The position numbers were made by a program, and so were the translations under genes. Of a stretch of 60,840 bases of DNA, positions 21,990 through 53,815 are shown in pieces (positions within the stretch are counted from its first letter, which is position 1; every line of letters begins with the position of its first letter). The DNA lies in contig DSCJ01000107.1 in assembly GCA_011049175.1 (NCBI GenBank), forward strand, positions 1 to 60,840. Direction: 5' to 3'. The notes beneath the pieces were generated by a model. The model did no database searches. It had not been told where the DNA came from and saw only the letters and a list, made by a program, of their open reading frames with translations. The DNA is from Bacteroidota bacterium. Its GTDB lineage: Bacteria; Bacteroidota; Bacteroidia; Bacteroidales; VadinHA17.

Positions 21990-23375
21990 ATGGCTCAAGT
22001 AGAAATAATGCTCCCTGCCATGGGAGAAGGAGTAATTGAAGCAACCATTACCAAATGGCTGGTTAAGGAAGGTGACCATGTGAATGAAGACGATTCGCTG
22101 GTTGAAATTGCCACAGACAAAGTTGACTCGGAGGTCCCTTCCCCGTACTCCGGCGTGGTGAAGGAGATTCTGGTCAGGGAAGGTGAAACCCCTCAGGTTG
22201 GGCAGGTTATTGCGCGACTGGAAACCGAAAAGGAAATGGAAAGTTCCGCTACGGAAGAAGTCAGGAAAGAGGTGGAAAGGATCAAAAGTACTCCTTCCGG
22301 AAAGAAAACAGAACCTGTATCAGAGGAAAAAGAATCTCCGGCACAGGAAAAGCGGTTGGAAAAGGTTGCTGAAGCCGAGGAGATCCCTCTTCCCCCGGAA
22401 CAAACAAGTCATACCCCATCGGGAAGATTCCTCTCACCCCTTATCCGTCGTATTGCGGAAAAAGAGAACCTCGGCGCTGAAGAACTGGACAGCATTCAGG
22501 GCACAGGATTGAATAACCGGCTTACCAAGAACGACATATTGCAGTTTCTGGAAAAGAGAAAAACCGGAAAGGTAAAACAGCCCGAACAGGCTGCAACTGA
22601 AACAACTGCCCGGAAACCGGACCTGGAGCAGCAGGCCGCAGCCGGCGCCGTAACGGCATCGTCAGGTGAGGATGAAATCATTCAGATGGACCGTATGAGA
22701 AAGCTTATTTCTGAACATATGGTTCGTTCCAAGCAGATTTCCCCTCATGTTACCTCCTTTATAGAAGTGGATATGACAGCAGTGGTTGAATGGAGGAACC
22801 GGGTAAAAGATGGTTTCCTGCAGCGCGAAGGCCAAAAATTCACATTCATGCCCATATTCATTGAGGCAGCAGCCCTTGCCCTGCGTGATTATCCCATGGT
22901 TAACGTTTCGGTGGACGGCGACCGGATCATTAAAAAGAAAAACATCCATGTAGGAATGGCCACGGCTCTGCCCAATGGGAACCTGATTGTGCCGGTGATT
23001 AAAAATGCTGATGAAAAGAATCTCATAGGGCTGGCAAAAACGGTAAATGATCTGGCCAGAAGGGCCCGCAGTAACCAGCTGAAACCTGATGAGATTACCG
23101 GAGGCACTTTTACCATCACCAATTTCGGTACTTTTGACAGCCTTACAGGAACTCCTATCATCAATCAGCCGGAGGCCGCCATTCTGGGAATCGGAGCCAT
23201 CAGGAAGAAACCAGCCGTTATTGAAACCCCGGCAGGCGATGCCATCGGGATCAGGCACATCATGATCCTTTCTCTTTCCTATGATCACCGGGTGGTTGAC
23301 GGAGCACTGGGTGGCATGTACCTGAAAAAAGTGGCCGAATATCTTGAAGATTTCGACACCGGCAGGGTAGTGTAG
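21990..23375 (+). CDS. 2-oxo acid dehydrogenase E2 (dihydrolipoamide acyltransferase)
   Basis: A 461-residue E2 with the classical order. A lipoyl domain at residues 1-77 has Lys44 in the EIATDKVDSEVPSP turn. A Glu/Lys/Pro linker follows, then an E3/E1-binding domain at about 145-185 (SPLIRRIAEKENLGAEELD...IQGTGLNNRLTKNDI), an Ala-rich linker, and the catalytic domain ending with SYDHRVVDGALGG (His433, Asp437). It transfers acyl groups from E1 to CoA. Its E1 partner is probably the alpha/beta fusion at 43.6-46.0 kb, since that family accompanies branched-chain or mixed 2-oxo-acid complexes. No E3 gene is seen in the window. Confidence 0.95.
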   Translation: MAQVEIMLPAMGEGVIEATITKWLVKEGDHVNEDDSLVEIATDKVDSEVPSPYSGVVKEILVREGETPQVGQVIARLETEKEMESSATEEVRKEVERIKSTPSGKKTEPVSEEKESPAQEKRLEKVAEAEEIPLPPEQTSHTPSGRFLSPLIRRIAEKENLGAEELDSIQGTGLNNRLTKNDILQFLEKRKTGKVKQPEQAATETTARKPDLEQQAAAGAVTASSGEDEIIQMDRMRKLISEHMVRSKQISPHVTSFIEVDMTAVVEWRNRVKDGFLQREGQKFTFMPIFIEAAALALRDYPMVNVSVDGDRIIKKKNIHVGMATALPNGNLIVPVIKNADEKNLIGLAKTVNDLARRARSNQLKPDEITGGTFTITNFGTFDSLTGTPIINQPEAAILGIGAIRKKPAVIETPAGDAIGIRHIMILSLSYDHRVVDGALGGMYLKKVAEYLEDFDTGRVV

Positions 23376-23582: not shown

Positions 23583-26414
23583 ATGAAGCGGTATACACTC
23601 CTGATCATTCTTGTATCACTGCTTTTCACGTATAACGTTTCTTCTCAGGAAGGTATTGACTGGAGAGAACGGTTTAAAGAAGCCAATGCCTATTTTCTGT
23701 ATGAAGAATACAACGAGGCGCTCCCCATTTATCTTCAGATGCTGCGGGAATTCCCCAACAACCAAAATATCAGGTACCGTATCGGAGTATGTTATCTGAA
23801 TACTCCCGGGCAGAAAGACAAAGCCATTGACTACCTGGAAAGAGCTTCCCGGCACACTTCGGATAAATACAGGGGAGAAAATATCCGGGAAAACAATGCC
23901 CCGCCCGAGGCCCTGTTCCGCCTGGGCGACGCCTACCGTGTAAACAACCGTCTTGACGAAGCATTGGAAGCATACCGGCGATTTAAAAATTCTGTCGACG
24001 AAAAAAAGTATGACCTGGATCTTGTTGATGAACAGATCCGTGCCTGTGAAAATGCCAAAAAGATCATGCAAAACCCTATGTTTCTGGATATGAGGAATAT
24101 GGGCGAAGTGATCAATTCCAGGTTTTCCGACTATAATCCTGTTGTGTCGGCCGACAGGACCATGATGGTTTTCATGCGGAAACTTCAGTTCTACGATGCC
24201 GTTTTCTTCTCCAAAAAAGTGGACGGAAAATGGACCGAGCCGGAAAACCTCACCTTCCAGCTGGGAGAAGACGATGACCTCTATACCAGTTCTCTTTCTG
24301 CCGACGGAAAAGAACTGTACCTATACAAAGTTGATGGTTACGACGGGAATATATACGTTAGTTATTATGACGGGAAGGAATGGTCCCGCATTAAGAGACT
24401 GAACGATCATATCAACACAAAATACTGGGAATCACATGCCTCCATTTCAGCCGACAGAAAAACCCTGTATTTTACCAGCAACCGGAAAGGGGGTTACGGG
24501 GACCTGGATATCTATGTATCCACACGTGACAGTGTGGGCGGTGAATGGGGCCCACCCGTGAACCTGGGAAACAAAATCAACACTCCGTACAATGAAGATG
24601 CCCCGTTCATATCCCATGACGGCAAAACACTCTATTTCAGCTCCTACGGCCATTTCAATATCGGAGGGTACGATATTTTTTATTCCAACCTGTTGAGCGA
24701 CAGCACCTGGTCGGCTCCAATGAACATGGGATACCCGGTAAACACCCCTGATGACAATCTTTTCTACTATCCCATTGGCGAGGGATACCTTGCCTATTAT
24801 GCCATGTACAGTGAAGAGGGTTTCGGTGAACAGGATATTTTTGAACTCGAAATATATTCCGAAGAACATCCCAAGAAATACCTTATCAGTGGAATGGTTG
24901 GACTGAAAACCACCCAGGGCTATCTACCCGAGGCCATTACGGTTCGTTTCATCAACACGGAAAGCGGCGATACGGCGTCCGTTGTCATGGCCGATGCATC
25001 GGGGCGTTATCAAACCGACCTGGTTCAGGGCAATTATCATGTAGTTTTTGAGGCAGACCGTTTCATTCCTGCCACAGACCGGCTGGTGATTGAGCCTTCT
25101 GAACACAGGGATTCCTTCACCCTGAACAAAACCCTTGAAGAAGCCGATCTGATTGCCGAACTTGAAGTTTCTGATACGGCCGTTTACATTACCAAAGGGA
25201 AAGTCAGAATTGACCTGGATACTGAAAAGAATGCCACACTGGTTGTGGAAACCATCAGGGACAGTGTGGTAGTGAACCGCGAGGAGTTCAATATCAGAAA
25301 AACGGAAACCCGGTATACCCTCGATCCCCTGCCAGGTGAAACCATTTTGCGTTTTACACTGACAGATCAGGCCGGCAACCGTACCGTAAAAGAAACGGTG
25401 GTTACTTACGAACCTCCGCGTGCGAAAGTCAAACCGGTTCCCGACGATGTATTGAGCGCAATGAAAGAACTCAAAGCCATTTCCGGGAAGGAATGGAGAA
25501 AGATCATTGAAAATACTGATCCTCAGCAATCGAAATTGTATTCTGTCAGTGATCTGCGGAAGTACCTGGTGAATGAAAGCAACCAGCCGGCTGAGGTCGA
25601 TACCCTTTTCATGTACCGCCACCAGGTGGCTTCTCTGAACACCACCGGCATAATGGAAAAACTGAACAGATATGCCCACGGTGAAATGAAGGAGGCAATA
25701 AGCCGTATCGACAGTGTCATATGGGCTGACAGCACCTCATTCCGACTCATCGAACACCTGAATGCCCTCTCGGAAAACTATGCATTCAGTGACAAAGATA
25801 TACGCAGGATCCTGATGATCTCACCAGCCACTGAGAAACAAAAAGTCAGGGAACTGATGGGTAAAATGGAGGAAATGGCCGAAGGTTCACTGAAATCATC
25901 CATTGAACAGCTTGAACCTGAACGCGAAGGGATTACAAACAACCAGGAACTCGTGGAATACCTCATTGGAAAAGCCGAAATCTTCGGATACGAAAAGGAA
26001 GAAGTCTTCAGACTCGTGTCCGCCCTGGCTTCAGGGGGAAAGATAGATGTACTGGCATTTCTTGAAAGCCTGACAAATTCATCGGAAGGAGCTTTGAATG
26101 ATTTCCTCTCAGGCCTTGACTATGAAATGGTCCGGAAAATGACACCGGAACAATTGATGGAATATATATTGCAACAGTCGGTTAATTATCCCTATACTGC
26201 CGACCAGGTTTGGGACCTCCTCTTCAAACTGATGGATAAACACAGCGAGCTGGCCGATGAGGTAATTGAAATACTTTCGGAAGAAAAGGTGCCGGGCCGA
26301 TTATGGATCGTATGGCTTACTGGCGGCGGTATTTTGTTCCTGGTTGTTCTGTTCCTTATTCTGACCAGAAGAAAGAAAGGAAAAAACAGAGAAAACCATG
26401 ACCTCCGGGGATAA
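23583..26414 (+). CDS. PD40 array protein A: TPR, PD40, Ig-like domains and C-terminal membrane anchor
   Basis: A 943-residue protein. It has a signal peptide (to about residue 22), TPR-like helices (about 30-165, with YEEYNEALPIYLQML and CYLNTPGQKDKAIDYLERA), and PD40/WD40-like strands (about 175-420, with LYFTSNRKGGYGDLDIYVS and YFSSYGHFNIGGYDIFYS). Next come a carboxypeptidase-regulatory-like domain (about 435-525), a further Ig-like domain (about 545-625) and a 270-residue helical region. It ends in a membrane helix (WIVWLTGGGILFLVVLFLIL) and a basic tail. The first half matches PorE-like proteins, but instead of OmpA it ends in a helix that should sit in the inner membrane. It is the first of five paralogues. 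The function is unknown. Confidence 0.85.
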   Translation: MKRYTLLIILVSLLFTYNVSSQEGIDWRERFKEANAYFLYEEYNEALPIYLQMLREFPNNQNIRYRIGVCYLNTPGQKDKAIDYLERASRHTSDKYRGENIRENNAPPEALFRLGDAYRVNNRLDEALEAYRRFKNSVDEKKYDLDLVDEQIRACENAKKIMQNPMFLDMRNMGEVINSRFSDYNPVVSADRTMMVFMRKLQFYDAVFFSKKVDGKWTEPENLTFQLGEDDDLYTSSLSADGKELYLYKVDGYDGNIYVSYYDGKEWSRIKRLNDHINTKYWESHASISADRKTLYFTSNRKGGYGDLDIYVSTRDSVGGEWGPPVNLGNKINTPYNEDAPFISHDGKTLYFSSYGHFNIGGYDIFYSNLLSDSTWSAPMNMGYPVNTPDDNLFYYPIGEGYLAYYAMYSEEGFGEQDIFELEIYSEEHPKKYLISGMVGLKTTQGYLPEAITVRFINTESGDTASVVMADASGRYQTDLVQGNYHVVFEADRFIPATDRLVIEPSEHRDSFTLNKTLEEADLIAELEVSDTAVYITKGKVRIDLDTEKNATLVVETIRDSVVVNREEFNIRKTETRYTLDPLPGETILRFTLTDQAGNRTVKETVVTYEPPRAKVKPVPDDVLSAMKELKAISGKEWRKIIENTDPQQSKLYSVSDLRKYLVNESNQPAEVDTLFMYRHQVASLNTTGIMEKLNRYAHGEMKEAISRIDSVIWADSTSFRLIEHLNALSENYAFSDKDIRRILMISPATEKQKVRELMGKMEEMAEGSLKSSIEQLEPEREGITNNQELVEYLIGKAEIFGYEKEEVFRLVSALASGGKIDVLAFLESLTNSSEGALNDFLSGLDYEMVRKMTPEQLMEYILQQSVNYPYTADQVWDLLFKLMDKHSELADEVIEILSEEKVPGRLWIVWLTGGGILFLVVLFLILTRRKKGKNRENHDLRG

Positions 26415-26440
26415 AAAGGTCTGACAGACTGAATGGCTTC

Positions 26441-26480
26441 ATGAAGGGATTGATCAAATGAACAATCCCTTCATTTCTTT
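26441..26480 (+). terminator. Strong terminator between PD40 genes A and B
   Basis: A perfect 12-bp stem, ATGAAGGGATTG (26441-26452) with CAATCCCTTCAT (26463-26474), a 10-nt loop, then TTCTTT. Gene A is therefore probably transcribed apart from B-E. Confidence 0.75.
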
Positions 26481-26500
26481 CCTCATGTGAATTAAATTAT

Positions 26501-26508
26501 TAAATTTG
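26501..26508 (+). promoter_or_regulatory. Promoter -7 box (TAAATTTG) for PD40 gene B
   Basis: A perfect TAnnTTTG, 31 nt before the ATG at 26532 and just after the terminator of gene A. The -33 position carries only a weak TTTC. Confidence 0.45.
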
Positions 26509-26531
26509 TTTGGTTTCAAATCCCAAGGCCC

Positions 26532-28514
26532 ATGAAAAAAGCTCTGGTATTTCTGTTATCCTGTCTATTATTTTCCTCCACATTCGCACAGGAAGTCAAT
26601 TTCAAGGAAACCTTCCTTGACGGGGATTATTTCTTGTTATACGAAGAATATGCCGATGCCCTGCCCTTCTTTCTTGAACTATATGAAATAGATCAAGACA
26701 ATGCCAACATCTGTTACCGGATTGGCATGTGTTATATCAATATGCCGGGACAAAAAGAGAAAGCCATTCCCTATCTGGAGAAAGCCGTTAAAAATACCAC
26801 CTCAAGTTACAGAGAAGGGAATTACAGGGAAGACAGAGCCCCCCTGGAGGCCTATTATTATCTGGGAGCCGCCTACCGGATACAGGAACGATTTGATGAA
26901 GCCTGCCAGATTTTTGACCAGTATCTGTCATTAATAGAAAACGGAGATACCATTAACCGCAATTTTATCCTACAACAGATCAATGCATGCGAGAACGCCA
27001 GAGAATATATGAAAGATCCCGTCCCCTTCGATGCAGTAAATCTGGGTCCACCCATAAATGATCAGTTTCCCAATTTCAAACCGGTTACCACACCCGATGA
27101 AGAAACCCTGATATTCGTTACCGGCCTGAAATTTTATGATGCGATATTTTATACCGAAAAATCTGGCACCCAGTGGAGCGATCCGGTCAATCTCAGCCCG
27201 GAAATCCTTTCAGACGGGGACATGTATCCCACATGCCTTTCATCAGACGGGAAACAATTGTTACTTTCCAAAGACGACGATTTCAACAGCGATATTTACC
27301 TCAGCCGGAAAATAGACGGAGAATGGCAACCGGCAGAAAAACTCGGGAAGAATATCAATACCAAATACTGGGAAAACCATGCCTGCGTTTCTGAGGACGG
27401 GTCTGTTCTGATTTTTGCCAGCAACAAACCCGGAGGATACGGCGGTTTTGATCTGTATCTTTCCCGCTGGGATGAAACCATCGGCGACTGGGGCCCCGCT
27501 GAAAATATGGGGCCTGCAATCAATACCCCTTTCAATGAAGAAACCCCCTTCCTGGTGAATAACGGAAAAACCATTTATTTCAGTTCCCAGGGGCACGAAA
27601 CCATGGGAGGCTACGATGTTTTTACTTCCTCCCTTCGCGATGACGGGAACTGGAGCACACCGGTCAACCTGGGTTATCCCATTAACACCTCCGACGAGGA
27701 TCTTTTCTTCATGCCAGTGAATGACGGTATAAACGCCTACTTCGCCAGATATACCGAAGATGGTTACGGGCAGGAAGACATTTACCGATATGAGATTTAT
27801 TCTGATAATAACCCAAGACCCGTATTAATAACCGGAAAAGTAACCCTTGAGGATAAGACCGTAACGGAAGCAACCGAAATAAAGGTTAATATATCCGGCC
27901 CCTCAGGTACTCAGCCCTCAACCCTGCCGGTCGATCCTTCAACCGGCGTATATCACTACACCAGCAAGGTGCCAGGCACCTATACCCTCACATTCGAGTG
28001 TGAAGGTTACGAACCCCTTGTCAGGGAAGCTCATCTTCCATCCGATTATTCTCTTTCGGAAGTAATGGTAGACGCCACACTGGTTGCGGTTCCCCCCGAA
28101 ATCATTACCCTGAAACATATCTATTTCGCTTTTGACAGGGCAACCATCACCACAGAAGAAAAGGTTAAACTTGACGAACTGGTAAAAATCCTGGAGGAAC
28201 ACGCCAGATTGAATATTGAAATTATCGGCCATACCGATGCCATTGGTCCGGCTGCATACAATCAGAAACTTTCCGAACGCCGTGCAGGTGCCGTACGTGA
28301 TTACCTCATATCAAAAGGGATTGGGAAGGCGAGGATCAGCATATCGGGAGAAGGTGAAAACAACCCGATAGCCCGAAACCGGTACGAAAACGGTACCGAT
28401 TGTCCCGAGGGACGGGCACTGAACAGAAGGGCAGAAATTCGTGTTCCTGAATCAGGTGATCTGATCATGGAATACGAACCGATCGAAATGCCGGACGATA
28501 TCAAAATCCGGTAA
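26532..28514 (+). CDS. PD40 array protein B: OmpA family, PorE-like
   Basis: A 660-residue protein with a signal peptide (cleavage after TFAQ, about residue 19) and TPR-like helices (about 25-160; CYINMPGQKEKAIPYLEKA). PD40 strands follow (about 170-420; FASNKPGGYGGFDLYLSR, GGYDVFTSS), then a carboxypeptidase-regulatory-like beta domain (about 435-520) and an OmpA-C peptidoglycan-binding domain (about 530-645; IYFAFDRATITTEEK, IEIIGHTDAIGPAAYN, LSERRAGAVRDYL, NRRAEIRV). This is the architecture of PorE, the peptidoglycan-bound T9SS protein of Porphyromonas, and of many gliding-related paralogues. It is co-transcribed with gene C, 7 bp away. Confidence 0.9.
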   Translation: MKKALVFLLSCLLFSSTFAQEVNFKETFLDGDYFLLYEEYADALPFFLELYEIDQDNANICYRIGMCYINMPGQKEKAIPYLEKAVKNTTSSYREGNYREDRAPLEAYYYLGAAYRIQERFDEACQIFDQYLSLIENGDTINRNFILQQINACENAREYMKDPVPFDAVNLGPPINDQFPNFKPVTTPDEETLIFVTGLKFYDAIFYTEKSGTQWSDPVNLSPEILSDGDMYPTCLSSDGKQLLLSKDDDFNSDIYLSRKIDGEWQPAEKLGKNINTKYWENHACVSEDGSVLIFASNKPGGYGGFDLYLSRWDETIGDWGPAENMGPAINTPFNEETPFLVNNGKTIYFSSQGHETMGGYDVFTSSLRDDGNWSTPVNLGYPINTSDEDLFFMPVNDGINAYFARYTEDGYGQEDIYRYEIYSDNNPRPVLITGKVTLEDKTVTEATEIKVNISGPSGTQPSTLPVDPSTGVYHYTSKVPGTYTLTFECEGYEPLVREAHLPSDYSLSEVMVDATLVAVPPEIITLKHIYFAFDRATITTEEKVKLDELVKILEEHARLNIEIIGHTDAIGPAAYNQKLSERRAGAVRDYLISKGIGKARISISGEGENNPIARNRYENGTDCPEGRALNRRAEIRVPESGDLIMEYEPIEMPDDIKIR

Positions 28515-28521
28515 CGTATCC

Positions 28522-30486
28522 ATGAGCTGTTGCAACGAAATGTCTAAAAAAACACCCGGGTTGAAAATGACCGGAGTCATCCTCCTCCTTTCCTGGTCAT
28601 TCGCAACAGCACAGTCGGGTAAGGATTACCAGAAAACCTTCTATGAGGGGAATTTTCATTACCTCTACGAAGAATATGAAATGGCCTTACCCTATTTTTC
28701 CGGGCTGGTTGAGAAGCATCCCGATAATGCCAACCTGAATTATAAAACCGGGATTTGCCTGCTACATATTCCGGGTTACGAATCCCTGGCCGTTCCTTAT
28801 CTTGAAAAGGCTACAAACCGTGTGAAAAAACGTTACAGGGATGACTCCCACAGAGAAATGTCAGCACCGCGCGAGGCATTTCTGTATCTGGGGATAGCCT
28901 GCAGGATAAACGGAAATCTCGATGCCGCCCTGGAACATTTTGCCAGGTACCGGAGATGGTTCGGACAGGATGATCCGGAAACAAAAGAAGCCGAACGGCA
29001 GATAAAAATGTGTGAAACCGCAAAAAGATTTTATTCTGCTCCGGTTTCTGAACCTCCTGTTGAAATCCCCGTAATAAATACCGGCATCTATGTTTATAAT
29101 CCCTGTCTGGCCCCCGATGGTTCGGCTTTGGCATTTATGCACCGGAAGGATTATTACCGGGCTGTGATGCTTTCGGAAAAATACGACGGCAGCTGGCATG
29201 AACCCCGGAACATCACTGCTTCCATTGAATCTGACGGATATTTTGAATGTGTATCCCTTTCAGGAAACGGAAAGGTGCTTTTCCTGACCAGACAACAGAA
29301 TGAGCAGTACGACCTGTATTATTCCAGGTATAAAGAGGGGCGCTGGAGCCCTGTCAGACCTCTCGAGGGGGTGAATACACGGTGGAATGAAACTGCCGCA
29401 TTCCTGACAGATGACGAAAATACCCTGTATTTCTCCAGCGACAGACCGGGGGGATATGGAGGATTGGATCTGTACGCAGCGCAGCTGGATGAAGAATTTG
29501 TGGTTGCCGGCCTGCAATTGCTGGACAATCAGATCAACACACCCTACGACGAAACCTCGCCTTACCTGAAGCATCCCGATACTCTGTTTTTTGCCTCCGA
29601 TGGACACATAACCATGGGCGGGCTTGATATTGTCCGTTCCATCAGATCCGGAGATACCTGGACGGTTCCGCAAAACCCCGGGTATCCTGTCAATTCAACC
29701 CTGAACGACCGGGCCTTCTCTCCTGCCCCTGGTGATGCTGATTTTATTCTGACAAGGCACAAAGAACCCGGAACGAGCCAGTTAGCATGGTTCATGCCGA
29801 CCCACACATTTCAACCTGCCCAGGTTGTGGTTTCAGGGAATGTACATGTTACCAGCCCCACCGGCAGGGTTTCTCCCCTTGAAACCACGCTGACACTAAC
29901 CAGCGTGGAAAAAGGCGACACCCTTCTGGTAACAACGGATAGTACAGGCCATTTTATATTCCACCTCCCCCCGGACATATATGAAATAACCCTGCAGGAC
30001 AGCAGTTTAGAATCATTTACTCAACGGTTTCATATCACCGACAGGGAAGAAAGCCATTCCCTCGACATTTCCGTCAGGGAAAAAATCAGCGAAACCATCA
30101 CACTAAGAAATATTTATTTCGGTTTCGACAGATATGATCCGCTCCCTTCATCGGAAAGCGCCCTCAGAGAGCTGGCCACAATACTGGAACAGTTACCCGA
30201 TTTAAAAATTGAGATCCGGGGCCATACCGATGCCATTGGAACGGAAGATTACAATTTACGATTGTCGGAACGCCGGGCACTGTCGGTTAAAAACTACCTG
30301 GTAAAGCAGGGCGTTCTGCAAAACAGACTGGTAATCAAACCGCTCGGAGAATGTTGCCCCATTGCTCCAAACCACCTGCCCGACGGATCGGACAACCCGG
30401 AAGGAAGGAAATTCAACCGCAGAGTGGATTTTGCCGTTACGGAAAATAAATACCCCTTTAGTCAATCGGAAAAACCTGTCTTTTAG
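28522..30486 (+). CDS. PD40 array protein C: second OmpA family, PorE-like
   Basis: A 654-residue paralogue of B with the same order: signal peptide (cleavage near ATAQ, about residue 31), TPR-like helices, PD40 strands (LYFSSDRPGGYGGLDLYAAQ, GHITMGGLDIVRS), a regulatory-like beta domain (about 430-510), and OmpA-C (IYFGFDRYDPLP, IEIRGHTDAIGTEDYN, LSERRALSVKNYL, NRRVDFAV). The PD40 blades are shorter and more diverged than in B. The start may be at 28540 (MSKKTPGLK). Two OmpA proteins in tandem would give two peptidoglycan anchors in the same unit. No PorP partner lies beside them. Confidence 0.88.
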   Translation: MSCCNEMSKKTPGLKMTGVILLLSWSFATAQSGKDYQKTFYEGNFHYLYEEYEMALPYFSGLVEKHPDNANLNYKTGICLLHIPGYESLAVPYLEKATNRVKKRYRDDSHREMSAPREAFLYLGIACRINGNLDAALEHFARYRRWFGQDDPETKEAERQIKMCETAKRFYSAPVSEPPVEIPVINTGIYVYNPCLAPDGSALAFMHRKDYYRAVMLSEKYDGSWHEPRNITASIESDGYFECVSLSGNGKVLFLTRQQNEQYDLYYSRYKEGRWSPVRPLEGVNTRWNETAAFLTDDENTLYFSSDRPGGYGGLDLYAAQLDEEFVVAGLQLLDNQINTPYDETSPYLKHPDTLFFASDGHITMGGLDIVRSIRSGDTWTVPQNPGYPVNSTLNDRAFSPAPGDADFILTRHKEPGTSQLAWFMPTHTFQPAQVVVSGNVHVTSPTGRVSPLETTLTLTSVEKGDTLLVTTDSTGHFIFHLPPDIYEITLQDSSLESFTQRFHITDREESHSLDISVREKISETITLRNIYFGFDRYDPLPSSESALRELATILEQLPDLKIEIRGHTDAIGTEDYNLRLSERRALSVKNYLVKQGVLQNRLVIKPLGECCPIAPNHLPDGSDNPEGRKFNRRVDFAVTENKYPFSQSEKPVF

Positions 30487-30605
30487 GCAACAATATTCCC
30501 GCCGGGCTGATCAGTACACACCAACCTGTGTGAAGCATGGTTCGTAATACAAGATTTTTTATTATCTTTCTTTTCTGTTCAAGAGGCTGGCTAAAATTAC
30601 TTCAA

Positions 30606-32075
30606 ATGAGAAATGTCCTTTTCCTTTTTAGTTTACTGTTATTCTGCACTCCTGCCGTGGCACAGGATGATCAGAGCCCGGAAGAATTGCTTGATAACGG
30701 GTTCTTCTTTTTCCAGGAAGAAGATTATGAAGAAGCTATTTATTATCTGCTGCGGCTCGAAGATACACCCTATTTCAATGCCAATGTACATTTCAGGATC
30801 GGAATGTGTTATTTACACATTCCCGGAGAAGAATACAAAGCCATCCCCTACTTTGAGAAAGCGCTCGAGAATCTTACCGGAAAATACTCGGCAAGATCCA
30901 CAAAAGAAAAAAAAGCTCCCTACCATACCTGGTTTTACCTGGGCAGGGCATACCGGATCAATAACGAACTGGAAAAAGCCCTGGATGCTTTTTATGCTTT
31001 CAGGGAAGTTCCGGGCTTTGACAGGAATTACAATATCGGAATTGTGGAAAACGAAATCCGTGCCTGTGAAATAGCAAAAATCATAAAGGATATTCCCCTG
31101 AATGTGAACATCGTAAACCTGGGGTCGCCTGTCAATGATGCCTCGGACAATTACCACCCTGTCATTTCTGCCGATGAACAGACAATGGTATACATGACTG
31201 ATTTAAAGTTTTATAATGCCATCTTTATGAGTAAAAAACTGGCCGGCATATGGACTGAACCCGTTAATATTACCCCACAGGTAGAATCGGACGGGGATGC
31301 CATCCCGGTATGGATTTCACCGGAAGGAAATAAATTGCTTCTCATAAAAGGCACAGGGAATAAACGTGATATCTACATCAGCACCTACAGTGCCGGATCC
31401 TGGTCCAGAATGGAGCCTTTTCCGGGTCCGGTTAATTCGAACCGGGCTGAATCCTTTGCTTCCCTGTCAACCGATGAAAAAACCCTTTATTTTTCAAGTA
31501 ACCGGAGAGGAGGAATGGGCGGATTCGACATTTACCGCTCAGTACTTGACCAGTCCGGACAGTGGTCGGAACCGGAAAATCTGGGAGATGTGATAAACAC
31601 CCCCTTCAACGAGGCCTGTCCACATCTGTCAGAAGACGGGAACACACTGTATTTTGCATCGGAGGGACATTACAACATGGGGGGATACGATATTTTTTAT
31701 TCCACCAGGGAGCCGCCAGGGCAATGGCAAGATCCGATAAATATCGGATACCCGGTTAATACCACTTCCAATGAAACCTTTTTCTATCCCGCCAGGAACG
31801 GTAAGTTCGTGTATCTTTCCAGAAATATGCCGGAGGGATTCGGGCAGCAGGATATTTACCGCATTGAAATTATACCGGAAGAAACCCCCGGTATTGAAAC
31901 GGTTTCAGGAAAACTGGATGCAACATGGGACTGTAAAACACCCTTTATCATCAGGCTGGTAGACAGGAATACGGAAGAAATACTGACCGAAATCATTATT
32001 GATCCTGAATCAAAGAAAATTAGCTACAAATCAAGTAGTAAAAATCTGAAAGTACTTATTGAAAAAAACAATTGA
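30606..32075 (+). CDS. PD40 array protein D: TPR-PD40 without C-terminal anchor
   Basis: A 489-residue paralogue. The signal peptide begins at the ATG at 30606 (MRNVLFLFSLLLFCTPAVAQ), and an earlier in-frame start would spoil it. TPR-like helices (CYLHIPGEEYKAIPYFEKA) and PD40 strands (LYFSSNRRGGMGGFDIYRS, GHYNMGGYDIFYSTR, GYPVNTTSNETFF) are complete. The following beta domain is cut to about 50 residues and the protein ends in a Ser/Lys tail with no OmpA, SPOR or membrane helix. Either it is a soluble periplasmic form or a truncation. The following 38 bases are AT-rich and hold the promoter-like box of gene E. Confidence 0.85.
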   Translation: MRNVLFLFSLLLFCTPAVAQDDQSPEELLDNGFFFFQEEDYEEAIYYLLRLEDTPYFNANVHFRIGMCYLHIPGEEYKAIPYFEKALENLTGKYSARSTKEKKAPYHTWFYLGRAYRINNELEKALDAFYAFREVPGFDRNYNIGIVENEIRACEIAKIIKDIPLNVNIVNLGSPVNDASDNYHPVISADEQTMVYMTDLKFYNAIFMSKKLAGIWTEPVNITPQVESDGDAIPVWISPEGNKLLLIKGTGNKRDIYISTYSAGSWSRMEPFPGPVNSNRAESFASLSTDEKTLYFSSNRRGGMGGFDIYRSVLDQSGQWSEPENLGDVINTPFNEACPHLSEDGNTLYFASEGHYNMGGYDIFYSTREPPGQWQDPINIGYPVNTTSNETFFYPARNGKFVYLSRNMPEGFGQQDIYRIEIIPEETPGIETVSGKLDATWDCKTPFIIRLVDRNTEEILTEIIIDPESKKISYKSSSKNLKVLIEKNN

Positions 32076-32088
32076 ATTTTTAGATTTG
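32059..32088 (+). promoter_or_regulatory. Promoter-like boxes before PD40 gene E
   Basis: TTG (32059-32061), 19 bp, then TAGATTTG (32081-32088), a perfect TAnnTTTG 33 nt before the ATG at 32114. The -33 part overlaps the end of gene D. Gene E may have a second, separate transcript. Confidence 0.45.
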
Positions 32089-32113
32089 TCAATATGTTAA
32101 TAGCACATGCCTC

Positions 32114-34036
32114 ATGCATAAAAGCCTGATATTTCTGTGCTGCTTATTTCTGCCGGGAACGATCACAGGCCAGACAAGGTCTGAAATGCGTGAGATTTTC
32201 GTCGAGGCCGAATCACATTACCTTTACCGGGAATATGAAGATGCCATATTGCTTTATCTTCTGCTGGAAGATGATGATAACGCCAATATCCTGTACAAGA
32301 TCGGGGTATGTTACCTGCATATTCCCAACGAAAAGGAAAAGGCCATTCCATACCTCGAAAAAGCAGTGAAAAATGCATCCTACGATGCCCGGGATCATCT
32401 TCCTGCCGAAACCCGTGCTCCGCTCGATGCTTATTTCTATCTGGGCAATGCCTACAGGATCAACAATCAGCTCGATAAAGCCATCGCCACATACCAGCAC
32501 TTCAGGGAACTGATCAGGCAGAACAATCCCATGGAAAATGATGAATTCATTAACCAACAGATCAGGGCATGTGAAATAGCAAAAGAACTGAAAAGGAATC
32601 CTGTCAGTTATATCCCCCAAAATCTGGGTAGCCAGGTCAATGTGGTATCCCTGAATATTCATCCGGCCGTATCGGGCAATGAAAATACCCTGGTATTTAC
32701 TGCCAAGTACGGGGATGAGGATGTCCTTTATCAAAGTACCCGTACCACGGGCGGGACATGGAAGCCGGCGGAAGACATCACCCGCCAGGTCCACTCCGGC
32801 CGGGACGGAATGTCCTCTTCCCTTTCATCTGACGGAACGGAACTGTATCTGTATAAATCCGATATGGAAGACGGGAATATTTATGTCAGTTTTAAAAACG
32901 ATGGAGAATGGACCCGGGCCCGAAAGATGAACCGGAACATTAACACCCGTTATTACGAATCGCATGCCTGTATCTCAAGCGATGGAAATACTCTGTATTT
33001 TACCAGCAACCGGCCTGGGGGAAGGGGAGAACTGGACATATATTTTTCAAAAAGGGACAAACGCGGTAACTGGGGACCTGCGGAAAATATAGGAAATAAT
33101 ATCAATACCCCCTTCAATGAGAATTATCCCTTTATTACAGAAAATGATTCACTGCTGTATTTTTCTTCGGAAGGCCATTACAACATGGGTGGATATGACA
33201 TATTCTACTCTCAGCGAATGCCAGATGGATCCTGGAGCAAGCCCGTGAATATAGGATATCCCCTGAATACCACCGACGATGACCTGTTTTTCAATCCGGT
33301 GGAAAACGGCAAAGCCGCCTATATTTCCATGCTTGACGGTTACAAGGAAATAAACCTGTACCGAATTGAGATCCTTCCTGCGGGAACTACCCGTGACTTC
33401 ACAATCAGGGGGCAATTGTCACTGGCCGACACCACCCGGGAGTTCGGCAGGGATTTTCAGATCATCATGATCGACAGGGAATTGATGGATACGGTAGATG
33501 TGGGATTCCCGAACCGGCAATCGGGACAATACTCTTTCATCACCAAATCAGGCAATTATGACCTGATTTATACCGGAAACGGATACCTTCCCCATCAGGA
33601 AGAAATACAGATCGATGAATATGCCCGAAAATCGGAATTTGTTATTGATGTGGAACTAAGCCCTGCAGAACCTTCCATAAAACCCGTCAGGCAAAAATGG
33701 CTGAAAGACAGCATCGATATCAGCCAGGCCAGGCCGCTCGATTCGGCAATGGTCATTACAGACCTTGACATCCAGGACCTTGAAACCATTGATCAGGAAA
33801 GGGACGTGTTGTATTATACCATTCAGTTAATGGCATTGAAAGTCCGGCCGGTGGATGTTTCCTATTTCGCCCCCCTTGAAAATGTACGGGTCATTCTGGG
33901 GAAAGACGGCTTTTACCGGTATACCTACGGCGAATTTGACACCATAGAAGAAGCGGAAAAAGTAAGGCAGCAACTGGTTGATGAAGGCTATCATGAAGAT
34001 CTGTGGGTGAAAAAAGTTTACCAGGATTCGGAATAA
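32114..34036 (+). CDS. PD40 array protein E: TPR-PD40 with C-terminal SPOR-like domain
   Basis: A 640-residue paralogue with signal peptide (LFLPGTITGQ), TPR-like helices (CYLHIPNEKEKAIPYLEKA), PD40 strands (LYFTSNRPGGRGELDIYFSK, GHYNMGGYDIFYSQ, GYPLNTTDDDLFF) and a shortened beta domain. The last 80 or so residues look like a SPOR domain: YYTIQLMALKVRPVDVSYF, then LGKDGFYRYTYGEFDTIEEA, EKVRQQLVDEGY and DLWVKKV, the usual beta-alpha-beta pattern of SPOR. SPOR domains bind denuded septal glycan strands. The rest resembles the other four proteins. The SPOR call is by pattern only. Confidence 0.85.
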   Translation: MHKSLIFLCCLFLPGTITGQTRSEMREIFVEAESHYLYREYEDAILLYLLLEDDDNANILYKIGVCYLHIPNEKEKAIPYLEKAVKNASYDARDHLPAETRAPLDAYFYLGNAYRINNQLDKAIATYQHFRELIRQNNPMENDEFINQQIRACEIAKELKRNPVSYIPQNLGSQVNVVSLNIHPAVSGNENTLVFTAKYGDEDVLYQSTRTTGGTWKPAEDITRQVHSGRDGMSSSLSSDGTELYLYKSDMEDGNIYVSFKNDGEWTRARKMNRNINTRYYESHACISSDGNTLYFTSNRPGGRGELDIYFSKRDKRGNWGPAENIGNNINTPFNENYPFITENDSLLYFSSEGHYNMGGYDIFYSQRMPDGSWSKPVNIGYPLNTTDDDLFFNPVENGKAAYISMLDGYKEINLYRIEILPAGTTRDFTIRGQLSLADTTREFGRDFQIIMIDRELMDTVDVGFPNRQSGQYSFITKSGNYDLIYTGNGYLPHQEEIQIDEYARKSEFVIDVELSPAEPSIKPVRQKWLKDSIDISQARPLDSAMVITDLDIQDLETIDQERDVLYYTIQLMALKVRPVDVSYFAPLENVRVILGKDGFYRYTYGEFDTIEEAEKVRQQLVDEGYHEDLWVKKVYQDSE

Positions 34037-34080
34037 CCCCTCCCCGGCAGGGTGCGTCAGGGGAACGATCGCTGCATTTC

Positions 34081-34617
34081 ATGAATACGCTTCTGGAAAA
34101 TAAACGAATCAGACTCAGAGCCATGGAGCCCGAAGACCTGGAAGTACTGTACCTGTGGGAAAATGATCCCCGTCACTGGAAGGTAAGCCAGACCCTCATC
34201 CCCTTTTCAAAATTTACCCTGAAACAGTTCATCAAACAATCCACCAACGACCTGTATACCACCAGGCAATTCAGACTCATGATCATTCGCAGGAACGACG
34301 ACCATCCCCTGGGAGCAATCGATTTGTTCGATTTTGATCCCTACCACAAGCGGGGCGGGGTGGGTATTCTGATACATGACGAAAATGACCGGAACAAGGG
34401 ATATGCTTCCGAAGCTCTCCAATTGTTCAAGGAATACTGTTTCGGGCACCTGAAACTCCACCAACTTTACTGCCATATCGCCACTGACAACCAGGCCAGC
34501 CTGCGTTTGTTCACCGGGAACGGATTCACCGTTATCGGCGAAAAAAAAGAATGGTTGTTCAATGGGAATGGTTATTCCAGCGAGTGGATGCTGCAGTGCA
34601 TCAATCCGTCGTCTTAA
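34081..34617 (+). CDS. GNAT family N-acetyltransferase
   Basis: A 178-residue acetyltransferase of the RimJ/RimL type. It begins MNTLLENKRIRLRAMEPEDL and has YLWENDPRHWKVSQTL, the acetyl-CoA loop in GGVGILIHDENDRNKGYASE, and the C-terminal TDNQASLRLFTGNGF motif. It transfers acetyl groups to amines, protein N-termini or small molecules; the substrate is unknown. I took the ATG at 34081, since the longer reading overlaps PD40 gene E. Its 3' end overlaps the convergent HsdR_N gene by 17 bp. Confidence 0.9.
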   Translation: MNTLLENKRIRLRAMEPEDLEVLYLWENDPRHWKVSQTLIPFSKFTLKQFIKQSTNDLYTTRQFRLMIIRRNDDHPLGAIDLFDFDPYHKRGGVGILIHDENDRNKGYASEALQLFKEYCFGHLKLHQLYCHIATDNQASLRLFTGNGFTVIGEKKEWLFNGNGYSSEWMLQCINPSS

Positions 34618-39542: not shown

Positions 39543-41996
39543 ATGGATCCTCATCAGGAATATATTTACCAGGAAGAGAACATTGACATAAAAAAGTTTC
39601 TGCTCAGAATACTGGGAAACTGGTACTGGTTTGCCATTTCCCTATTCATTGCCATTACGGCGGCCTATCTGTTCAACCGGTATTCCGAACCCATTTACAG
39701 TGTCAGCGCTACCCTGATAGCCCGGGGGGAAGAGAAAGGAAAAACCGGGATGGAAGGTTTCATCGAAGGGATGGAAATCGTTACCCGGCAGGTGAATGTG
39801 GAAGATGAAATGGAAATTCTCCGTTCGTACACACTCACCAACCAGGCTCTGCGGAAACTGGACGATTTCGATGTTTCGTATGTCCTGGTGGGAAGAAGGG
39901 GTATCAAGGAATCGAAACTTTACAACCGTTCCCCGTTTGTGGTGGAACTCGATACCCTTTATCCGCAGCTGCCGGGTCACAAAATTTACATTACTCTCCT
40001 GAACAGGGAAGAATTCCGACTGGAAATCGACGAACATTACGATATCGACCGGGTGATGAAATTCGGAGAGCCGTTTGTGCATCCTCCGCTGGCATTTACA
40101 GTAAAACAACGCAATCCTGAAGAATTCGATCCAACAAGCTGGTCATCCAACAAGTTCTATTTCGTTGTCAATAACCTGAACGCTCTTACCAATGCCTACC
40201 GTTCGAAATTGTCGGTCGAGGTAAACGATCCGAAAAAAGGTTCGGTACTGACCCTGACCACCCAGGGGTTTGTGGCGCAGCAGGAAGCCGATTACCTGAA
40301 CAAGCTCATTGAAGTATACATTGATTACGGCAGGGAGGAAAAAAGCAAAAATGCCACACTGGCCCTCCAGTTCATTGATGAACAGCTGAAAGAAATTGTC
40401 GATTCTCTGGAATCGGTGGAACAGGAAATGCTCGAATTCAGGCTCAGATACAATATCATCGATCTGAGCCAGGAGGGTGCGGCCATTGCCCAGAAACTGA
40501 TTGACCTGCAAAAGGAAAAAACCATGCTGGGCATGCAGCAAAAATATTACCATTACCTTCAGGGTTATATCCGGGAAAGAGGTGATTTTTCCGATGTCAT
40601 TGCCCCTTCTGTAATGGGAGTGAACGAACCGCTCCTCACCAACCTCATTGCCAGGCTTACCGAATTATATTCCGAACGGACCACCCTGGAACATTCTGCC
40701 CAGCGATTCAATCCTTCAGTCACCCTGAATGCCCGCCAGATTGAGGAAACACGTCAGATCCTGCTGGAACATGTGAGCAGCATGATCGAATCGGCTGCCC
40801 TGAGCATGAAGGATATTGACCGCCGCATGGCGGAAGTGGAAAAAGACATCCAGCAGTTACCGGTAACGGAACGGGCATTGATCGGAATTGAACGGAAATT
40901 CCAGGTAAACGACGAAATATATACCTACATGCTGCAAAAACGCATGGAAGCGGGTATTGCCAAAGCTTCAAACCTGCCCGACAACCGGATGCTCGATCAG
41001 GCCCGGGCTGAAAATGCCGCAAGGGTAAAACCCAAAACCTCCATGAACTATATGATCGCCCTGATCCTGGGATTTGTTGTACCGGTGGTGATCATTCTGC
41101 TGATCGATTTTTTCAACAACCGGATCGTTGACCGGAAAGACATTGAAGATCATACCAGCGTACCCGTGATCGGCTCGGTGGGTCACAATAAAACCGATTC
41201 CGAAATCCCGGTATTCCTGCAGCCCAAATCATCCATTGCCGAATCGTTCCGGGCACTGAGAACCAATCTGCAGTACATGCTCAGGGAGAAAGGGGAAAAT
41301 ATTGTTCTGATTTCATCCACGGTGAGCGGGGAAGGAAAAACATTCATTGCCACTAACCTGGCAGTGATCGTTGCCATGTCGGGCAGAAAAACCCTCCTGG
41401 TAGGCCTCGATCTGCGTAAGCCGAAAATCCACAGGGATTTCAATATTACAAACGAAACAGGCCTGAGCACATACCTTATCAACCAGAGCGAACTGGACGA
41501 TATTATTCATCCCACCGATATTGAAAACCTATACGTGGTCACGTCGGGGCCTGTTCCCCCGAACCCTGCTGAATTACTGGAAACCGGGCGAATGGCCACC
41601 TTCATGGAACATATCCGTAAGGAGTACGATATGGTCATTCTCGATACCCCTCCTGTGGCCGTGGTTACCGATGCCATTCTGGTGAGCAAATATTCCCATG
41701 CCAACATTTTTGTGGTACGGCATAATTTCTCACATAAAAACGTTATCCAGTTTATTGACGAGATATACAAAAGGAAAGACATCCGCAACATTTCCCTGCT
41801 GATCAATGATATTAAGCTGCATGGATATTACGGTTACGGATACGGTTACAGATATGGATACGGATACGGCTATAACTATGGATACGGTTATGGATACGGA
41901 TACGGAAGCGACTACTACTCGGATGATGATAATGCACAAGGCAGCCTTTTCAGGCGGTTGCTGCATTCGGCAGGAAAACGGAACCGGAAAGAATAA
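39543..41996 (+). CDS. Wzc-type chain-length regulator / tyrosine autokinase with Tyr-Gly tail
   Basis: An 817-residue fusion of a Wzz domain (membrane helix near residues 25-45, periplasmic coiled coil, second helix near 505-525) and a cytoplasmic BY-kinase. The kinase has Walker A in SSTVSGEGKTFIATNLA, a Walker A' region at LLVGLDLRKPK, and Walker B in MVILDTPPVAVVTDA. After residue 761 there is a 31-residue tail with 16 tyrosines in YG repeats, followed by an acidic Ser/Asp stretch. The tail is the autophosphorylation site in this family and controls export of long chains. Such a long uninterrupted YG run is unusual. No glycosyltransferase cluster follows. Confidence 0.93.
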   Translation: MDPHQEYIYQEENIDIKKFLLRILGNWYWFAISLFIAITAAYLFNRYSEPIYSVSATLIARGEEKGKTGMEGFIEGMEIVTRQVNVEDEMEILRSYTLTNQALRKLDDFDVSYVLVGRRGIKESKLYNRSPFVVELDTLYPQLPGHKIYITLLNREEFRLEIDEHYDIDRVMKFGEPFVHPPLAFTVKQRNPEEFDPTSWSSNKFYFVVNNLNALTNAYRSKLSVEVNDPKKGSVLTLTTQGFVAQQEADYLNKLIEVYIDYGREEKSKNATLALQFIDEQLKEIVDSLESVEQEMLEFRLRYNIIDLSQEGAAIAQKLIDLQKEKTMLGMQQKYYHYLQGYIRERGDFSDVIAPSVMGVNEPLLTNLIARLTELYSERTTLEHSAQRFNPSVTLNARQIEETRQILLEHVSSMIESAALSMKDIDRRMAEVEKDIQQLPVTERALIGIERKFQVNDEIYTYMLQKRMEAGIAKASNLPDNRMLDQARAENAARVKPKTSMNYMIALILGFVVPVVIILLIDFFNNRIVDRKDIEDHTSVPVIGSVGHNKTDSEIPVFLQPKSSIAESFRALRTNLQYMLREKGENIVLISSTVSGEGKTFIATNLAVIVAMSGRKTLLVGLDLRKPKIHRDFNITNETGLSTYLINQSELDDIIHPTDIENLYVVTSGPVPPNPAELLETGRMATFMEHIRKEYDMVILDTPPVAVVTDAILVSKYSHANIFVVRHNFSHKNVIQFIDEIYKRKDIRNISLLINDIKLHGYYGYGYGYRYGYGYGYNYGYGYGYGYGSDYYSDDDNAQGSLFRRLLHSAGKRNRKE
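41826..41918 (+). repeat. In-frame Tyr-Gly codon repeat at the 3' end of the wzc-like gene
   Basis: Codons for Tyr and Gly alternate (TAC GGA or TAT GGT units), giving 6-bp and 12-bp tandem repeats. The codons vary (TAC/TAT, GGA/GGT/GGC), which suggests selection for the peptide, not only slippage. The repeat could still be length-variable between strains. Confidence 0.85.
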
Positions 41997-46464: not shown

Positions 46465-46650
46465 ATGTTCATCAAGATCCTGATCGTGGCCGTTGTATTG
46501 ATGGTACTGGCCGTTCTGGGGCTCATGCTGGGCTTGCTGAGGAAAAAAAACGGACAGTTTCCCACCCGGGGCTGCGGAGTATCTGCCGGAGGTGTGGACC
46601 ATCCTTCCGGATGCTGCTGTATGGATCACTGTGCGGGCTCTTCCGTGTGA
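46465..46650 (+). CDS. Small Cys-rich membrane protein with NqrM-like pattern (2 of 2)
   Basis: A 61-residue protein. One membrane helix (residues 3-25) is followed by RKKNGQFP and a cytoplasmic tail with Cys37, Cys50, Cys51, Cys52 and Cys56 (GCCCMDHC). NqrM, needed to put iron into NQR in Vibrio, is likewise a single-helix protein with a first Cys and a C-x-C-x3-C cluster about 12 residues on. Here the spacing is 13, then C50-x-C52-x3-C56. It is encoded convergently with apbE, overlapping its 3' end by 25 bp. The likeness is from memory and needs a profile search. An NqrM-type role is plausible. Confidence 0.68.
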   Translation: MFIKILIVAVVLMVLAVLGLMLGLLRKKNGQFPTRGCGVSAGGVDHPSGCCCMDHCAGSSV

Positions 46651-47687
46651 TCTTCCCGCAGGTATTGCCTGAACCCTTCTGTCATCCAGGTTTTGAATGC
46701 CCCATTCTCATCGGAATAGATAAAATACCCCTCCAGTTCAGGCATTTCGCTAACCAGGCTCATCCCTTCCTCCAGGCCCATCACCATGCAGGCCGTGGCA
46801 TAGGCATCGGCCGTCATGCAATCGGGCGCCGTAATGGTCACACTCAATAGCCGGTCAAGAACGGGATACCCGGAGCGGGGGTCTATGGAGTGAGCGTATT
46901 TTACACCGTTTTTTTCATAGAATTTCCGGTAATTTCCCGATGTAGCCAGATTGATTTCAAAACATTCCATTATCACCTGCAGGTCCTGTCCCGGAATAAG
47001 GTTGTTGTCAACGGGCCTGTCAATACCAACGGTCCAGGGTCGCCTGTTTATTTTATGTCCGCTGGTACGTATTTCACCGCCCAGTTCAACCAGGTAATTC
47101 CGTATGCCCCTGCTTTCCAGAAAACTGCCCACCACATCCACTGCGTAACCCTGGGCAATGGCATTCACATCCAGCTGTACGCCGGGCACCTTCTTTACCA
47201 GTTTCCTTCCCTGCAACACCACTTTGTCCATTCCCACCAATTGCAGCAGGCTGTCGATGTTCACGGTATCGGAATCTGCCGGTCCATCCGGGCCGAAGCC
47301 CCAGGCATTCACCAGGGGCCCTACGGTAATATCGAAAGCCCCGCCGGTTTTACGGGTTACCTCAGTGGCTGTTTTGAAAATTTCCACAAAATAATCGTCG
47401 GCCACCACCCCGGAATCATTCCGGTTGACCCTTGAAATAACCGATTCGGGCACATAAAGGGATAACGACCGGTCGAATCCGGCCAGCAGTGAGTCGATCT
47501 CATCCTGCAGCATGACTGAACCGCGGTTGAACATGTACCTCCATCCGAAAGGATACTGATAGATCACCCGGTAGGTAGTACCCTGGGCAAAGCCGTCCAC
47601 TGTATAGTACGATTGCTGCCGGTATGAAAGCCAGGCGAAAAGGGGAATCAGCAAAAGCAACACTATGACCGGTATAATTTTTCGCAT
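46626..47687 (-). CDS. apbE: FAD:protein FMN transferase (ApbE)
   Basis: A 353-residue ApbE. It has a signal anchor (residues 4-20), the family motifs GFAQGTTYRV (substrate side), FDITVGPLVNAWGFGP, VQLDVNAIAQGYAVDVV and YLVELGGEIRTSGHK, and the C-terminal TADAYATACMVMG with the metal-binding Asp and Thr. It attaches FMN to a Thr in SGA(S/T)T sites of NqrB and NqrC, both encoded upstream in the same operon. It is the last gene of the nqr operon, 52 bp after nqrF. Confidence 0.95.
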   Translation of the reverse strand: MRKIIPVIVLLLLIPLFAWLSYRQQSYYTVDGFAQGTTYRVIYQYPFGWRYMFNRGSVMLQDEIDSLLAGFDRSLSLYVPESVISRVNRNDSGVVADDYFVEIFKTATEVTRKTGGAFDITVGPLVNAWGFGPDGPADSDTVNIDSLLQLVGMDKVVLQGRKLVKKVPGVQLDVNAIAQGYAVDVVGSFLESRGIRNYLVELGGEIRTSGHKINRRPWTVGIDRPVDNNLIPGQDLQVIMECFEINLATSGNYRKFYEKNGVKYAHSIDPRSGYPVLDRLLSVTITAPDCMTADAYATACMVMGLEEGMSLVSEMPELEGYFIYSDENGAFKTWMTEGFRQYLREDHTEEPAQ

Positions 47688-47739
47688 AGGCAGAAAAAGT
47701 CATTCACTGATTGGAACATCCATTCATAAAACCGGAAGA

Positions 47740-48984: not shown

Positions 48985-49014
48985 GATTGTGATCATCTTG
49001 CCGTGCAATTTGTA

Positions 49015-49632
49015 TTACAGTTTAATGCCCATGAAACTCATGAAAGCGATCCCCATCAGCCCGGTGATAATAAATGTAATGCCCAGTCCGCGCAGGGGAG
49101 CCGGAACATTCGAGTACCTGATCTTTTCCCGGATGGCGGCAATGCCCACAATGGCCAGGAACCATCCCACCCCCGACCCCAGGCCGAAAACCGTGGCTTC
49201 GGCCAGGTTGTGGTATTCCCGCTCCTGCATAAAGAGCGATCCCCCCAGTATGGCACAGTTCACGGCAATAAGAGGCAGGAAAATACCCAGCGAGTTGTAC
49301 AGGGCAGGAGTAAATTTCTCCACAATCATTTCCACCAGCTGGACCATGGATGCGATCACCGCAATAAACACAATAAAAGTAAGAAAGCTGAGATCCACAT
49401 CGGCAAATCCGGGACTCAGCCAGGTAAGGGCTCCTTCCTTCAGCAGGTAATTTTCGATGAGGTAATTAACCGGAACAGTGATCCCGAGGACAAAGATCAC
49501 GGCAATACCCAGCCCCACCGAGGTTTTCACCGTTTTCGACACCGCCAGGTAGGAACACATTCCCAGAAAATAGGCGAAGATCATATTGTCGATAAAGATC
49601 GACCTGACAAAGATATTGATCAGATTTTCCAT
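49015..49632 (-). CDS. nqrE: Na+-translocating NADH:quinone reductase subunit E
   Basis: A 205-residue, six-helix protein. It carries Cys26 ([12 protein letters not shown]) and Cys126 (AVNCAILGG), two of the four residues that hold the iron centre shared with NqrD inside the membrane. [22 protein letters not shown] is a typical loop. The gap to nqrD is 8 bp. Confidence 0.97.
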
Positions 49633-49640
49633 GGCTGGTA

Positions 49641-50291: not shown

Positions 50292-50293
50292 GA

Positions 50294-50995: not shown

Positions 50996-51007
50996 GGCAT
51001 ATCGCAT

Positions 51008-52207: not shown

Positions 52208-52232
52208 GAATGCAATGAATATAATGGATGGT

Positions 52233-53754: not shown

Positions 53755-53815
53755 TATCAACTGATTAAACACACAGCGTTATTGTGGAAACCTGTTGAAA
53801 AAAATATTTCATTTG

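Follow-up and report, generated by a model that had tools for sequence, protein, structure and literature searches.

Five consecutive genes, here termed A to E, lie on the plus strand between 23583 and 34036 of the window (i.e., the whole stretch of 60,840 nucleotides analysed), and all five open reading frames were confirmed. Gene A (23583..26414) encodes 943 aa counted from 23583 and ends in a hydrophobic helix followed by the basic sequence RRKKGK. Gene B (26532..28514; 660 aa) and gene C (28522..30486; 654 aa) each possess a TPR block (below the cut-off in C), a propeller, a CRD-like domain, and an OmpA_C domain with a D/N/R triad, starting at D569 in B and at D570 in C. Gene D (30537..32075; 512 aa) consists of TPR (below the cut-off) and propeller, and Pfam matched no anchor domain at its C-terminus. 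Gene E (32114..34036; 640 aa) contains TPR, propeller, a CRD-like beta domain recognized in the model, a linker, and a SPOR domain at about 551–637. A to E are paralogues with a common signal peptide, TPR block, and PD40 propeller and with differing tails; the same protein-binding head is carried on different tails, and such rows are kept in place in many Bacteroidota genomes. Directly upstream is a gene for a lipoyl E2 acyltransferase of a 2-oxoacid dehydrogenase (21990..23375, plus strand), named from its sequence without a family search, and downstream an open reading frame (34003..34617, plus strand; true start probably inside) for what we take to be a GNAT-type acetyltransferase.

A Sec-type signal peptide is visible by eye at the start of all five translations, and PD40 exceeds the Pfam cut-off in all five proteins; TPR models match all five as well, the cut-off being passed in A, B, and E only. 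OmpA scores 84.0 bits in B and 66.1 bits in C (cut-off 27.2), and SPOR in E reaches 21.3 bits, just above the gathering score of 21.0 of PF05036, or 25.6 bits with the tail alone. A CarboxypepD_reg match under the cut-off is found in A, B, and C; none is listed for D and E, and the model of E has a beta domain at the equivalent place. The shared head and the series of tails (helix, OmpA-C twice, none, SPOR-like) given in a preliminary description of this DNA are thereby confirmed. Concerning its two sequence motifs, (M/V)CYxxxPGxxxKAI(P/D)Y is matched exactly by A, B, and D, whereas E has PN and C has ICLLHIPGYESLAVPY; GGYD(I/V)F occurs in A, B, D, and E, whereas C has GGLDIV.

Modelled by AlphaFold from a 12-sequence alignment (pLDDT 78.8, pTM 0.43), A contains TPR at 27–163, the propeller at 167–425, a CRD-like domain at 432–520, a second beta domain at 533–609 (Ig-like by eye), a long helical repeat at 621–900, and one final helix at 906–934, predicted to be a single C-terminal membrane helix and followed by the basic tail. 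In the model of E (pLDDT 78.3, pTM 0.57), the C-terminus follows the SPOR order of strands and helices, beta-alpha-beta-beta-alpha-beta (565–575, 582–585, 591–595, 601–608, 611–623, and 631–637). The PD40 and SPOR assignments, on which the preliminary description depended, held in profile searches, and SPOR is better backed by the relatives and the model: it was matched in 14 of 16 tails of E orthologues at E<=0.1, and of two whole orthologues scanned with Pfam one passes (L096, 22.0) and one fails (L100, 17.0). Among the PDB sequence-search matches to the E tail no SPOR chain was found. The match lists of Foldseek (E and A) and VIA-align (E) are filled by the propeller and carry no information on the helical repeat of A or the SPOR tail of E, such that the absence of a SPOR chain from them is no evidence.

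Two kinds of putative transcription signal are found within the row. A terminator-like hairpin between A and B (26441..26474, plus strand) has a perfect 12-bp stem and a loop of 10 bases and folds with -20.1 kcal/mol (z -2.7); it is unlisted in the consensus terminator scan, which allows loops of 3–8. Boxes of the form TAnnTTTG, presumably the Bacteroidota-type -7 promoter consensus, precede B (TAAATTTG, 26501..26508, plus strand) and E (TAGATTTG, 32081..32088, plus strand). Over the whole window TAnnTTTG is not commoner than chance (33 versus 37.4 expected), and the numbers from consensus promoter and terminator scans are likewise at chance level; only position across relatives is informative. 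There, 45 of the 64 gaps that follow the membrane-helix member contain the box (200 shuffles: mean 6.4, highest 13), as do 33 of the 75 remaining gaps (mean 4.3, highest 8), excluding gaps shorter than 20 bases (10 of 74 after A and 39 of 114 others) and gaps of 300 bases or more. This recurrence indicates that A and the remaining genes probably start separately, with further starts inside the row, and suggests that expression of A can be uncoupled from that of its neighbours. From the split transcription read earlier in this sequence, the box after A is thus borne out by relatives, whereas the hairpin is not general (perfect stems of at least 10 in 3 of 15 related loci).

Concerning the anchors themselves, Asp, Asn, and Arg are the peptidoglycan-contact residues of PorE in the available part of PMC7192894 (this and the other papers cited here by PMC number are drawn on in part), and their spacing, D-x7-N-x6-R, is kept in 77 of 79 OmpA-ended members, both others being from locus L094; a stricter pattern with more fixed context matches 72 of 79. 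The OmpA tails of the array would be of a kind that binds peptidoglycan. Among A-type proteins, 77 of 88 have a more positive net charge behind the helix than in front of it (means +4.0 and +0.1, respectively), as expected for an inner-membrane protein with a cytoplasmic tail, and we infer this side for A. A C-terminal helix plus basic tail is also the form of sortase-type signals, such that the last helix of A might serve sorting or processing in place of permanent anchorage; this is very unlikely, since inspection by eye of the 36 uncut tails (of 37) revealed no constant motif ahead of the helix, aromatic residues alone being frequent there. A lipobox pattern near the start is present in none of 137 family ORFs (L061–L100 and the window), judged by pattern only and from uncurated starts.

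Matches to the A protein were found in 56 of 60 genomes, the own genome included. From the named-genome scan the best 80 of 338 relatives were retained, all MAG-titled records and about half of them titled 'Bacteroidales', some titles naming other groups (e.g., Chlorobiota for L108 and Chitinophaga pinensis for L120). After removal of duplicates, and with the own-genome locus L080 excluded, 94 non-redundant relative loci remained; rows cut by contig ends were retained and labelled 'cut', and counts over these loci, as well as over gaps, are not corrected for shared descent. A membrane-helix member is present in 87 of the 94 loci and is the first of its row in 86 of these 87. Conservation of the genes as neighbours thus stands, A-first rows being widespread, whereas the exact five-gene order (T-O-O-none-S, i.e., membrane helix, OmpA, OmpA, none, E-type tail) is complete in 6 of 94 loci only, the rest having other sets or cut rows. 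It is nearly complete in two more, one with the first and one with the last gene cut by the contig end, and one locus adds an extra E-type-tailed member. The commonest patterns are T-none-S-OS (20 loci) and T-none-S (13 loci), where S denotes an E-type tail recognized by a profile built from E tails, which SPOR tails unlike E's would escape, and OS denotes OmpA plus such a tail.

In seven loci A stands alone: three have long flanks (L173, L175, L178), three are near contig ends, and in L144 A adjoins a cut member that fell below the score filter of the count. The genomes of L173, L175, and L178 hold paralogues elsewhere. When six A-alone genomes were searched, three of them apparent only through a contig end, four (G041, G454, G455, G457) yielded no match reaching the SPOR part of E.

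A sixth type of paralogue, of about 835–890 aa, possesses OmpA and one or two stretches resembling the SPOR tail of E (e.g., L100 5658–8165 and L061 8966–11476). It ends the row in many relatives, and in the own genome it is located elsewhere, on contigs C16 (L080 6574–9249) and C37 (L183 6084–8645), both with OmpA and a weak E-type tail (34 and 58 bits by profile, respectively). Of three proteins of this type scanned with Pfam, one has a listed SPOR match; in the C16 paralogue none is listed at E<=0.01.

The preliminary description had called the anchors interchangeable, and this was not borne out. On a tree of 285 heads, from which the tails were excluded, tail type changes 11 times, compared with a mean of 163 and a minimum of 147 in 200 shuffles. 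All 87 membrane-helix proteins group in a single clade (support 0.83; 0.988 for 86 of them), 52 of 53 E-type-tailed proteins fall into one clade (support 1.0), and 23 D-type proteins into another (0.999). Exceptions are a protein of L083, in which an E-type tail (108.9 bits by profile; no SPOR listed by Pfam at E<=0.01) is joined to a B-like head, and short B-like proteins without OmpA. Judged from these clades of the head-only tree, each paralogue appears to be an old lineage with its own tail, the tails being tied to old orthologous groups.

The row also has a fixed chromosomal place between conserved flanks. The E2 gene is directly upstream in 43 of 94 loci and the GNAT gene directly downstream in 56; the same upstream glycosyltransferase occurs in 63 and recR in 61 (the names of these four flank genes being presumptive). 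Flank groups were built by single linkage, and contig ends make the counts lower bounds. Concerning other orders of the class, TPR-PD40 genes directly follow E2 in 17 of 20 loci picked by score. In a second sample, of 60 genomes not picked by score, the E2 gene is present in 58, the own genome included, and it was recovered in 56 of the 57 other loci fetched; the next same-strand gene is a TPR-PD40 gene in 29 of the 56, one lies further on in 2 more, and 25 have none. At least two TPR-PD40 genes occur in the stretch in 21 of these 31 cases, two of them counting opposite-strand genes. No membrane-helix tail was seen in arrays of other orders in either sample, contig-cut ends aside, and A-type proteins thus look confined, in these samples, to the order of the window. 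Members of other orders without OmpA often end, by eye, in GP(E/Q)Y...N...YE(Q/K)(Y/F)Q(Y/F)(I/V)K(I/V); this recurring tail (L205, L211, L213–L218, L221) is possibly one more anchor or binding type.

Elsewhere in the window, a presumably Wzc-like protein (39543–41996) has an unusual run of YGYG repeats as its C-terminus, and on the minus strand (46626–53588) six genes in a row, which we take from their sequence to be Na+-translocating NADH:quinone reductase-like, are accompanied by a presumed ApbE-like gene. A type IX secretion system (T9SS) plug protein (53795–55111; 419.5 bits by NCBIfam) and a barrel of the PorP/SprF family (59490–60473, minus strand; 222.6 bits) also occur, the latter 25 kb from the array.

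SprA was found in 59 of 60 genomes searched, the own genome included. The NCBIfam model NF052230 for PorE (cut-off 600 bits) scores A at 134.5, B at 249.9, C at 192.7, D at 142.7, and E at 156.7, such that none passes, and the own genome's PorE is a gene on contig C3 with 707.2 bits. The PorE architecture of TPR, propeller, CRD, and OmpA_C is found in B and C only, with CRD below the Pfam cut-off in both and, in C, TPR below it as well. The own genome also contains a row that we presume to be porKLMN-like, beside a PorP gene. The array is PorP-free and encodes no barrel partner nearby, since the PorP profile finds one gene in L061–L180 and none in L202–L221 or L252–L308; the earlier remark that no PorP gene sits beside the row therefore holds in the window and nearly so across the relative loci.

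According to the consulted parts of PMC9143113 and PMC7192894, PorE binds PorP and peptidoglycan, and PorE, PorP, and PG1035 form a complex (PMC9143113). In Flavobacterium johnsoniae, six porP-like genes adjoin porE-like genes (PMC9143113), an arrangement also given in PMC12618676, where five operons combine a PorE homologue, a type B cargo, and a shuttle. Much like this published arrangement is one in the own genome (L184 4016–11650), in which a 481-aa TPR-PD40-like gene has a PorP gene and a large protein as neighbours. The F. johnsoniae operons would be compatible with a reading in which each array protein serves as an independent adaptor for a different PorP-like barrel or cargo encoded elsewhere, the row having arisen by duplication in place. 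The own genome has eight PorP-family matches, none of them beside the array, and the numbers of TPR-PD40 and PorP genes rise together across 24 other families represented by one genome each (rho 0.91; 0.88 after genome size). Within the window's family, however, no relation between the two numbers is seen (rho -0.07, n=36), no more than 14 candidates per genome were scored for the TPR-PD40 counts, and a first position of A in 86 of 87 rows is more order than independent adaptors need. The correlation, which is seen between families but not inside that of the window, is not relied upon, and we regard independent adaptors as rather doubtful.

Alternatively, the array might replace Tol-Pal as an envelope tether that links the wall and both membranes for integrity or division, with no tie to T9SS. 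TolB and Pal exceed their curated cut-offs in none of 20 genomes, the own one included; each cut-off was passed in 2 of 14 control genomes. The cut-offs may not suit Bacteroidota. SPOR domains often go to the septum, and TolB propellers, which are six-bladed, rank high in Foldseek. The VIA-align list for the E model, by contrast, is led by glycosidase-type propellers (Z about 16–19), presumably five-bladed, and the propeller of PorE is called five-bladed as well (PMC7192894). In Cytophaga hutchinsonii, outer-membrane integrity depends on CHU_0125, a related protein with TPR, PD40, and OmpA whose loss damages this membrane, but this species also has tolA and tolB (PMC5891637, in its accessible portion). 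We regard a substitute for Tol-Pal as unlikely.

The reading we prefer is that A to E are old, vertically inherited, PorE-like periplasmic subunits which divide their work by tail, each anchored in a different layer; we put it at about even odds (roughly 0.5). Each protein would be exported by Sec, and the shared TPR-propeller head would dock on a partner, be it a PorP-like barrel, another array member, or both; a barrel is proposed because the partner of PorE is the outer-membrane barrel PorP. A would stop in the inner membrane via its last helix, B and C would hold peptide stems of peptidoglycan via their OmpA domains, E would bind glycan strands via SPOR, and D, lacking an anchor, would have to be held by a partner. 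The resulting scaffold would span from the inner membrane through the cell wall to the outer membrane in organisms using type IX secretion. The genes with their domains and tails, their order, synteny, and orthology are directly shown. A scaffold, which the preliminary description had offered next to a receptor set, is, with domain knowledge as its basis, the best reading that can be supported; the function of the array proteins, their binding to peptidoglycan, and any complex among them are inferred. In its favour are the A-first order, the match of tails with orthology, the conserved flanks, E2 adjacency, the kept D-x7-N-x6-R, SPOR, the charge difference across the helix of A, the presence of SprA, and the binding of PorE to PorP and peptidoglycan; against it are the genomes with A alone, the unmatched SPOR part in four of six of them, the missing correlation of counts within the family, the arrays of other orders without a membrane-helix member, the absence of PorP nearby, and the promoter box after A. 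A more far-reaching version, in which five tail-specialised paralogues with like heads build one trans-envelope machine not described in the literature covered, a column from the inner membrane through the wall to outer-membrane barrels, with A as an inner-membrane PorE-like subunit joined to B and C (peptide stems) and E (bare glycan), is tentative and rather less than probable.

Sister proteins with different tails, in rows kept at the same place in many Bacteroidota genomes, suggest an undescribed scaffold inside the bacterial envelope. They bear on an open question, namely the means by which type IX secretion and surface proteins are linked to the wall in Bacteroidota. For this the array offers definite genes, kept at a single chromosomal site in numerous members of a class and including an inner-membrane and a SPOR member in one order, and it suggests a placement of PorE-type proteins beyond the outer-membrane side.

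Among known systems, Tol-Pal likewise combines a beta-propeller, OmpA-type peptidoglycan binding, and an inner-membrane part, whereas in the array propeller and OmpA are fused in one chain, TolB or Pal matches over the cut-off are lacking, and the propeller probably belongs to another class. CHU_0125 shares the architecture of TPR, PD40, and OmpA (PMC5891637, as far as accessible), but the best score of the array with NF053607 is 224.6 bits (B) against a cut-off of 620. Many species have one PorE, Tannerella forsythia has fourteen homologues, and F. johnsoniae over twenty, mostly with a signal peptide and none predicted to be lipidated (PMC7192894, portions available), such that the claim of going beyond the single PorE holds for the PorP-free row, which was not encountered in the literature covered, and fails for multiple homologues, which are already in print (PMC7192894, PMC9143113). 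Many paralogues per genome are thus common to the array and the porE-like genes of F. johnsoniae and T. forsythia. In contrast to A, D, and E, the porE-like proteins described retain an OmpA tail with its peptidoglycan-binding residues (PMC7192894), and unlike the array, porE-like genes of F. johnsoniae have six porP-like neighbours (PMC9143113); the available parts of both papers mention neither a tandem row nor membrane-helix or SPOR tails for them. The accessible main text of PMC12635249 makes no mention of PorE by name, and the available part of PMC9950754 contains nothing bearing on the row; the literature covered, which comprised few subscription papers and no bioRxiv preprints, yielded no PorP-free syntenic or tandem row that includes a membrane-helix and a SPOR member. 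With PorE itself (PG1058), B and C share the order of TPR, propeller, CRD, and OmpA_C as well as the peptidoglycan-contact residues (PMC7192894, portions available), whereas the array proteins score 134.5–249.9 bits against the cut-off of 600, have no lipobox by pattern while PorE is a lipoprotein, stand in a row without PorP, and in A, D, and E carry other tails. Many PorE-like paralogues are therefore known, and what appears to be new is the conserved PorP-free row with its membrane-helix and SPOR members.
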